Assembly: GCA_035547835.1 (NCBI GenBank)
Contig: DASZTW010000005.1
Span: 434,001 to 498,000 of the forward strand
Source: Acidimicrobiales bacterium
Lineage (GTDB): Bacteria; Actinomycetota; Acidimicrobiia; Acidimicrobiales; Iamiaceae
Direction of reading: 5' to 3'
Length of the DNA: 64,000 nt
Within the stretch, counting starts at the first letter, position 1. The number at the start of each line of letters is the position of its first letter. Shown here piece by piece: positions 2,901 to 3,943 of this stretch. Under the pieces are notes generated by a model. The model had not been told where the DNA came from and did no database searches. It saw only the letters and a program-made list of their open reading frames with translations. The translations under genes and the position numbers were made by a program.

Positions 2901-3323
2901 TCAGAGCTGCGGAGCGAAGCGCTCCCAGGCCGACTGGCGGGTCATGCCGAGGGCGGACCCGATCCGCGCCCACGACACGCCGCGTTCGCGCAGCTGGCCG
3001 ACCCACGCCACCAGGCTGGTCTCGACCCGGTCGACCGACGCTGCCAGGCCGGGCAGCGCGGCCAACAACTCGTCGTCAGAGAGCGATGCCCACGGCGGCA
3101 CCCATTCGGCCGGCGCGCTGCCGCCCGACGAACCCGCGTGTGCGGCCAGCACGTCATGGCACAGGCCGATGCAGACGTCACAGATGTACACGCCGGGCCC
3201 GGCCACGAGCTTGGCCACCTCCGCGCTCGACTTGGTGCAGAACGAGCACCGGAAGACTCGATCGCGCTCGGTCGAGCGGCTCGTGGTGGCAGTGGACGAC
3301 GTGGTCGTGGATGCCGATGGCAT
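2901..3323 (-). CDS. ClpX-type C4 zinc-finger protein with C-terminal helix-turn-helix
   Basis: 140-residue cytoplasmic protein. Residues 20-60 form a ClpX-like zinc-binding domain with C26-x2-C29 and C48-x2-C51 and the family sequence AGPGVYICD. The C-terminus (about 115-140, containing [19 protein letters not shown]) looks like a helix-turn-helix. There is no AAA+ ATPase domain, so this is not ClpX. Such proteins are scattered in actinobacteria without a defined role; a DNA-binding regulator is my inference. The ATG at 3323 has a good ribosome site (AGGGGGA). A canonical promoter overlaid by two 19-bp palindromes lies 44-83 bp upstream, so the gene is tightly controlled and possibly autoregulated. 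Confidence 0.75.
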
Positions 3324-3366: not shown

Positions 3367-3406
3367 TGTCAGGGTGAACCTTACAATGTCAGGTTGCACC
3401 TGACAA
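3367..3406 (-). promoter_or_regulatory. promoter with two tandem 19-bp palindromic operators
   Basis: Operator 1 (3387-3405) is TGTCAGGTTGCACCTGACA, perfect 8-bp arms around TGC. Operator 2 (3367-3385) is TGTCAGGGTGAACCTTACA, identical at 16 of 19 positions, one base away, so the sites repeat every 20 bp. On the minus strand TTGTCA (3406-3401) and TAAGGT (3383-3378) are 17 bp apart and make a standard -35/-10 pair inside the operators. Binding would block the promoter of the ClpX-type zinc-finger gene. Confidence 0.7.
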
Positions 3407-3424: not shown

Positions 3425-3943
3425 TCAGCCGGCAGGTGTGGGCTGGCGGAGCTGCAAGTTGTTGCACGCCTCGCACACCGATTCGGGGACGATCCCAGCC
3501 GCCATCAACTTGGCGAAGATCGCGCAGCCGAGGCAGAACGCGAACACCGACTCGAGCGCGGCGGCGGCGGTGATCAGGGCGACCAACACCCACGCCACGA
3601 TCGGCACACCAGCGAAGTACGCGATGACCGCGCCGACCGACAACGTGGCGCCGATCCCCTGCGCAAACCGCTTCGGCGGGCCGGGGACGAGCTTGGGGCG
3701 TGCGAGGCCCGACCGGTCGAGTCCGGGCGCGACCACGCGGGTGGCCACTTGGCCGAGCGGGCTGAGGGTGGGGCCGGTGAGCACACGGGCGACGAAGCCC
3801 GCTGCCAACACCGCCAGCAACCACGGCGACCGGGTGATCAGGGTGGCCACCGTCAACAGCACCACGCCGCCGGCCACCGTGCGCGCCGCGACCTCGTTGA
3901 CCGGGTCGGGAAACGAGAACAGGCGAGACGAGAGTTGGCGCAT
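3425..3943 (-). CDS. DUF4395 family membrane protein
   Basis: 172-residue integral membrane protein with four hydrophobic segments (about residues 24-37, 41-56, 99-120 and 118-145). It carries two cysteine pairs, C137-x2-C140 within the last membrane segment and C157-x2-C160 near the C-terminus. The family has no established function; members often sit beside thioredoxin or sulfurtransferase genes, hinting at thiol chemistry. Here the neighbour is a zinc-cysteine protein 101 bp downstream on the same strand. TAGGGT (3955-3950) stands 6 nt before the ATG, so the mRNA is probably leaderless. Confidence 0.75.
   Translation of the reverse strand: MRQLSSRLFSFPDPVNEVAARTVAGGVVLLTVATLITRSPWLLAVLAAGFVARVLTGPTLSPLGQVATRVVAPGLDRSGLARPKLVPGPPKRFAQGIGATLSVGAVIAYFAGVPIVAWVLVALITAAAALESVFAFCLGCAIFAKLMAAGIVPESVCEACNNLQLRQPTPAG

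Follow-up and report, generated by a model that had tools for sequence, protein, structure and literature searches.

ClpC2 (Rv2667), which combines an N-terminal HTH/dimerisation region with a domain resembling the ClpC1 NTD, is a proven self-repressor. Its operator, CGTCAAC-n5-GTTGACG, is doubled over its own -35 and -10 boxes, and ClpC2 is released from it by a ligand (PMC10030653). Cyclomarin A pulls ClpC2 off the operator, and the ClpC2 that then accumulates soaks up the drug (PMC10030653). According to this precedent, bacteria sense and soak up ClpC1 poisons by means of a self-repressed copy of the target domain. A second described relative is the antitoxin RelI (Rv2664, PDB 9SDC), a short protein of the same HTH family that is paired with the toxin RelS; the paper describing it names ClpC2 and also fusions to DUF3887 and DUF2812, and the word ClpX is absent from its main text (PMC13284704).

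In this study, we describe a locus within a window of 64,000 nucleotides (the whole stretch of DNA analysed, from an Acidimicrobiales bacterium), in which an HTH module homologous to that of ClpC2 is joined to the zinc-binding domain of ClpX in a protein of 140 aa. We read the twin palindrome upstream of this gene as an autoregulatory operator pair and the protein as a ClpX-zinc/HTH self-repressor that senses or soaks up a ligand of the ClpX zinc domain, and we assign this reading as a whole a probability of about 0.8. The literature searched (without subscription journals and preprints) contained no description of HTH proteins with a ClpX zinc domain or of the operator, and querying it with the operator half-sites yielded unrelated papers only. 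The family looks like an undescribed ClpX counterpart of ClpC2.

The gene and its predicted product

The gene lies on the minus strand at 2901..3323 and is supported by the ORF reading, Pfam, AlphaFold2 and HTH homology. Its upstream neighbor is a DUF4395 gene (3425-3943), and downstream is a convergent gene that encodes, from a reading of the translation, an ABC transporter component; therefore, the 140-aa gene is probably transcribed alone, as a monocistronic unit. When the neighborhoods of homologous loci were clustered, no neighbor gene was conserved beyond small clades, and the gene therefore probably matters through its own protein.

The protein consists of a C4 zinc-binding domain (about residues 25-62), a linker, a long helix (83-113) and a C-terminal HTH (118-139). 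In the AlphaFold2 model, which has a mean pLDDT of 85.5, the helices of the HTH span residues 118-124 and 129-139. Over residues 25-60 the protein matches Pfam zf-C4_ClpX (5.6e-16), and no other Pfam family, including the Clp_N domain, scored above the cut-off. Searches of Pfam and NCBIfam also found neither a TetR nor a MerR domain in the protein. The likeness to the ClpX zinc-binding domain (PF06689; PDB 1OVX, 2DS5-2DS8) covers the sequence of the domain, its predicted fold and its four zinc cysteines; unlike ClpX, however, the protein lacks the AAA+ ATPase module and carries the zinc domain fused to a DNA-binding domain. The NCBIfam clpX model scores it at 42 bits, far below the cut-off of 371, and it is not a ClpX unfoldase. 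The zinc domain aligns without gaps to the ClpX of its own genome and keeps the AGPGVYICD stretch. All four zinc cysteines are kept in 38 of 38 aligned homologues, and most homologues also retain the non-cysteine surface of ClpX (A, G, P, G, V, Y/F). In the Micrococcales homologues the cysteines are retained and the GPGVY stretch has diverged; thus, the putative ligand surface is not kept uniformly.

Homology of the C-terminal half to the RelI/ClpC2 family rests on sequence profiles, the only confident Foldseek match of the AlphaFold2 model being to the ClpX zinc domain. In a profile search (hmmsearch) of solved structures, this half aligned to RelI (E 1.2e-13) and, at 1.2e-4, to the ClpC2 N-terminal domain (8ADA). 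A profile-profile comparison (hhalign) with ClpC2 sequences gave a probability of 97.4 and an E value of 9e-12 for an HTH region outside of which ClpC2 makes part of its DNA contacts, through R185 and R189 of the C-terminal domain according to its authors (PMC10030653). The 140-aa protein thus shares with ClpC2 an HTH module joined to the substrate-recognition domain of a Clp unfoldase. It differs in that this domain is the ClpX zinc domain and not the ClpC1 NTD, and in that the domain order is reversed, with the HTH at the C-terminus. From RelI it differs in carrying the ClpX domain, and no RelS toxin was found beside the gene, the neighbors being the DUF4395 and ABC transporter component genes. 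The HTH genes of M. luteus competence were considered as further relatives and rejected, because they belong to a different HTH type.

The operator pair and its embedded promoter

Upstream of the gene, two 19-bp palindromes follow each other with a period of 20 bp. Operator 1 (3387..3405) has perfect 8-bp arms and a 3-bp loop and reads TGTCAGGTTGCACCTGACA on the plus strand and TGTCAGGTGCAACCTGACA on the minus strand, which is that of the gene. Operator 2 (3367..3385) reads TGTCAGGGTGAACCTTACA and TGTAAGGTTCACCCTGACA, respectively, and departs from the palindrome at two positions. Read together on the minus strand, the pair is TTGTCAGGTGCAACCTGACATTGTAAGGTTCACCCTGACA, or two copies of the consensus TGTCAGG-n5-CCTGACA. 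A putative promoter of the form TTGTCA-N17-TAAGGT is contained in the pair on the same strand: the -35 hexamer (TTGTCA, 3401..3406) opens operator 1, which covers it, and the -10 hexamer (TAAGGT, 3378..3383) is located 17 nt further on, inside operator 2, some 55 nt upstream of the start codon (ATG at 3323). Operator 2 covers the sequence from the -10 box to about +5, and it leaves the palindrome exactly where TAAGGT is embedded. A generic sigma-70 scan did not flag this promoter because it has only 8 of the 12 consensus bases, and we relied instead on conservation among orthologues.

We compared 80 loci homologous to this one, drawn from Acidimicrobiia, mycobacteria, Pseudonocardiales, Streptosporangiales, Streptomyces, Micrococcales and other groups. 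The core GTCAGG-n5-CCTGAC, with no more than one mismatch, occurred within the 270 bases around the start of the gene at 79 of the 80 loci, at 72 of them in two or more copies, and not once in the remaining 417,617 bp of these loci. When spacer lengths from 0 to 12 were tried, only 5 worked; every other length was found at 9 loci or fewer. One seed peptide of the homologue search was MTRQSAWE, so that a search bias accounts in part for the constancy of the recognition helix. The conservation of the operator is unaffected, since the operator was not a criterion of that search.

Across 157 operator copies, positions G2, T3, A5, G6, G7, C13, C14, T15, A17 and C18 are nearly invariant, and the spacer is close to random. 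At position 4, 31 copies have A for C. In 29 of these 31, a T at position 8 completes a -10 hexamer (exactly TAAGGT in 26), compared with T at position 8 in 32 of the other 126 copies (p 1.7e-12). At 23 of the 31, a -35 position coincides with the first bases of the upstream operator, as it does in the window; it is usually TTGTCA, at a spacing of 17-18 nt. The second copy is thus imperfect because a -10 box is held within it.

These data bear on several statements of the first-pass annotation. The tandem 19-bp palindromes with a 20-bp period are as it described them, and none of 100 dinucleotide-preserving shuffles of the window contained two palindrome matches (mean 0.13 matches). The embedded promoter that it proposed is borne out on the minus strand by the orthologous operator copies, and the palindrome that it suggested looking for upstream of orthologues is present at 79 of 80. 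Its view that two dimers would cooperate on the same face of the DNA did not hold as a conserved feature. In homologues the copies are mostly 20-26 bp apart, clustering at 20-22 and at 25-26, and some pairs are 37-39 bp apart; strict same-face stacking is therefore not conserved.

Two peculiarities were observed among the homologous loci. At Nonomuraea loci (L003-L006 and others), the second operator holds the start codon ATG in its spacer, GTCAGGCCATGCCTGAC, some 30-55 nt 5' of the match, an arrangement that suggests leaderless transcripts such as those reported for clpC2. In L064, the sole homologue without an operator, the matched frame has lost the leading cysteines of the zinc domain, and the copy is possibly decayed or mis-assembled.

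The probable regulator and its target

Three independent lines point to the encoded HTH as the protein that would read the operator: its homology to ClpC2, the co-variation of recognition helix and operator, and a scan of viral contigs with DNA alone. Regarding homology, the operator is doubled at both genes over the gene's own -35 and -10 boxes and has the same outer half-site, GTCA-n2, and the same 5-bp spacer (PMC10030653), whereas the inner bases are GG/CC at the 140-aa gene and AC/GT at ClpC2. The first-pass annotation had not recognised the operator; it is not the published one, but it is a sister of it. Our procedure for finding operators, applied to ClpC2 genes, recovered CGTCAAC-n5-GTTGACG, which is the published ClpC2 operator. 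The two inner bases change together with the recognition helix: helices of the TRQSA type accompany GTCAGG, and V[TS][KR]QAAQKRF accompanies GTCAAC. Under the same filter, weaker members of the HTH family (VTKQAVH-type and others) had no such palindromes, and the operator is therefore not common to the whole HTH superfamily. If these pairs hold, they represent a readable recognition code for an HTH family common to Clp decoys, an antitoxin and actinophages, from which binding partners could be predicted by sequence.

When viral contigs were scanned with the palindrome as DNA alone, 13 of the 80 loci retrieved encoded the HTH family; with a permuted palindrome none of 80 did (Fisher p 1.4e-4), the control having hit contigs of lower G+C (0.50 vs. 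0.55). The viral genes mostly encode TRQSA-type helices and mostly lie within about 360 bp of the site. In their helix type, and in having exact TGTCAGG-n5-CCTGACA copies near the gene in several contigs, these phage proteins of the PHROG 686 type resemble the 140-aa protein; they differ from it in that 12 of the 13 have no zinc domain.

Several observations were made on individual members. The genome of the window also has a ClpC2-like HTH gene (L216, G000:C8:263800-266800; open frame of 263 aa), whose start is preceded, at about 20 nt, by one CGTCAATCTAAAGTTGACG site only. Among the viral loci L256-L335, PHROG 686-like proteins with the exact palindrome near their start occur in L276 (2037 and 2078), L313 (3136), L284 and L279, and are probably self-regulated phage regulators. 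A second paralogue in Sphaerisporangium fuscum (L146, 1501-1947) has the recognition helix IARESAWERF and unchanged TGTCAGG operators.

The pair in the window comprises the only strong operator copies in its own 3.70-Mb genome, where matches with 2 or 3 mismatches occurred elsewhere at control level only. In 35 other genomes bearing the gene, the sites lie at the gene's own promoter except at three loci. One of these is the home of the S. fuscum paralogue, which has its own operator pair; the other two (L133 and L141) have single sites with no family member found adjoining, and we take these sites as chance. Like ClpC2, the 140-aa protein thus appears to control itself alone, with no regulon seen. 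A repressor of this kind therefore presumably works as a protein and not as a regulator of other genes.

The comparative evidence, read from sequences, covers the operator, its overlap with the promoter, its linkage to the gene, the absence of a regulon, the HTH homology and the co-variation of helix and operator. Together, these observations strongly support the view that the 140-aa gene is self-repressed. The first-pass annotation had likewise proposed tight repression through paired dimer operators over the promoter of a small zinc-finger/HTH protein, a proposal that finds its support in this comparative evidence. From the same data we infer that the 140-aa protein binds as a dimer and represses.

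Mechanism, competing explanations and origin

According to the proposed mechanism, a dimer of the fusion between the ClpX zinc domain and the ClpC2/RelI-type HTH would bind TGTCAGG-n5-CCTGACA at both sites and block the -35 and -10 boxes, so that its own expression stays low. By analogy with ClpC2, a ligand bound to the ClpX-like domain would weaken the protein's hold on DNA and thereby trigger a burst of its synthesis, the surplus of which would soak up the ligand and spare ClpX. Candidate ligands that would attack or occupy ClpX include antibiotics, phage proteins and adaptors. We know of no ClpX zinc-domain ligand with antibiotic action, and we consider the odds of a sensor or sponge role, which is drawn from the ClpC2 analogy, to be about even.

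Self-repression would also be compatible with other uses of the zinc domain. As an adaptor or competitor of ClpXP, the protein would pair its free zinc domain with that of ClpX and tune the choice of substrate, and self-repression would merely set its dose. In ClpX, the zinc domain forms dimers and binds the tails of adaptors (PMC12373786, PDB 2DS8/1OVX), and the gap-free alignment to the genome's own ClpX fits such pairing. However, only 2 of 247 sampled species in the phylum are carriers, which is odd for a housekeeping adaptor, and twin operators suggest a state that is off by default. We therefore regard this role as possible but unlikely. The invariance of the four cysteines in 38 of 38 aligned proteins, and their retention in Micrococcales members that have lost the ClpX-like GPGVY surface, would be expected if the Cys4 site itself were the sensor. 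Zinc loss or thiol oxidation would then open the domain, break the dimer and derepress the gene, and the likeness to ClpX would reflect a borrowed zinc module. This explanation is doubtful, because a zinc or redox sensor is expected to control other genes and no regulon was found in its own genome or in the 35 others, and because most members keep the A, G, P, G, V, Y/F surface, for which a pure zinc sensor would have no use.

The affinities of the HTH raise a further explanation, namely an orphan antitoxin-like or phage-derived repressor serving defence or superinfection immunity, which would repress itself and incoming phages that bear the operator. The closest HTH is that of RelI, an antitoxin; the HTH tree groups the family with phage HTH proteins that have the same palindrome; and a viral contig (L326) carries one of the fusions. 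Nevertheless, no toxin adjoins the gene, which stands alone without a conserved neighbor, and the ClpX domain would be left without explanation, so that we find this role improbable. The first-pass annotation had looked to a TetR- or MerR-type repressor with a regulon. That an unlinked regulator of such a kind happens to control the 140-aa gene agrees with a palindromic dimer site over a promoter, as is found for many of these regulators. However, a distant regulator would have its own copy of the site or a regulon; the genome-wide search gave essentially own-promoter sites only, with neither seen in this genome or the 35 others, and the site follows the HTH gene even in phages. This possibility is highly improbable, and the evidence points instead to the encoded HTH.

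In a tree of the HTH domain, which has few columns and moderate support, the ClpX fusions group with the phage HTH proteins and apart from the ClpC2 clade. This separation makes it probable that the ClpC1 and ClpX domains were acquired in two independent captures. The distribution of the family is scattered: of the 247 species in the phylum-wide sample, 2 had a full-length match, only full-length matches being counted because the profile of the whole protein mostly retrieves ClpX itself through the zinc domain. A self-repressing ClpX version would make the decoy trick of ClpC2 general and would point to undiscovered natural ligands of the ClpX zinc domain. More tentatively, and at somewhat less than even odds, one self-repressing HTH module, probably derived from a phage or antitoxin, may have been joined independently in actinobacteria to the substrate-recognition domains of both essential Clp unfoldases, the ClpC1 NTD and the ClpX zinc domain. 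Such fusions would make up a general class of inducible decoys, directed against inhibitors of ClpC1P and of ClpXP. If this is true, one would expect natural antibiotics or phage proteins with the ClpX zinc domain as their target. The fusion on the viral contig, which is 37.6 kb long, is located around 10375-10830 of L326 together with two operators, and this contig is a possible phage or prophage carrier of the fusion.
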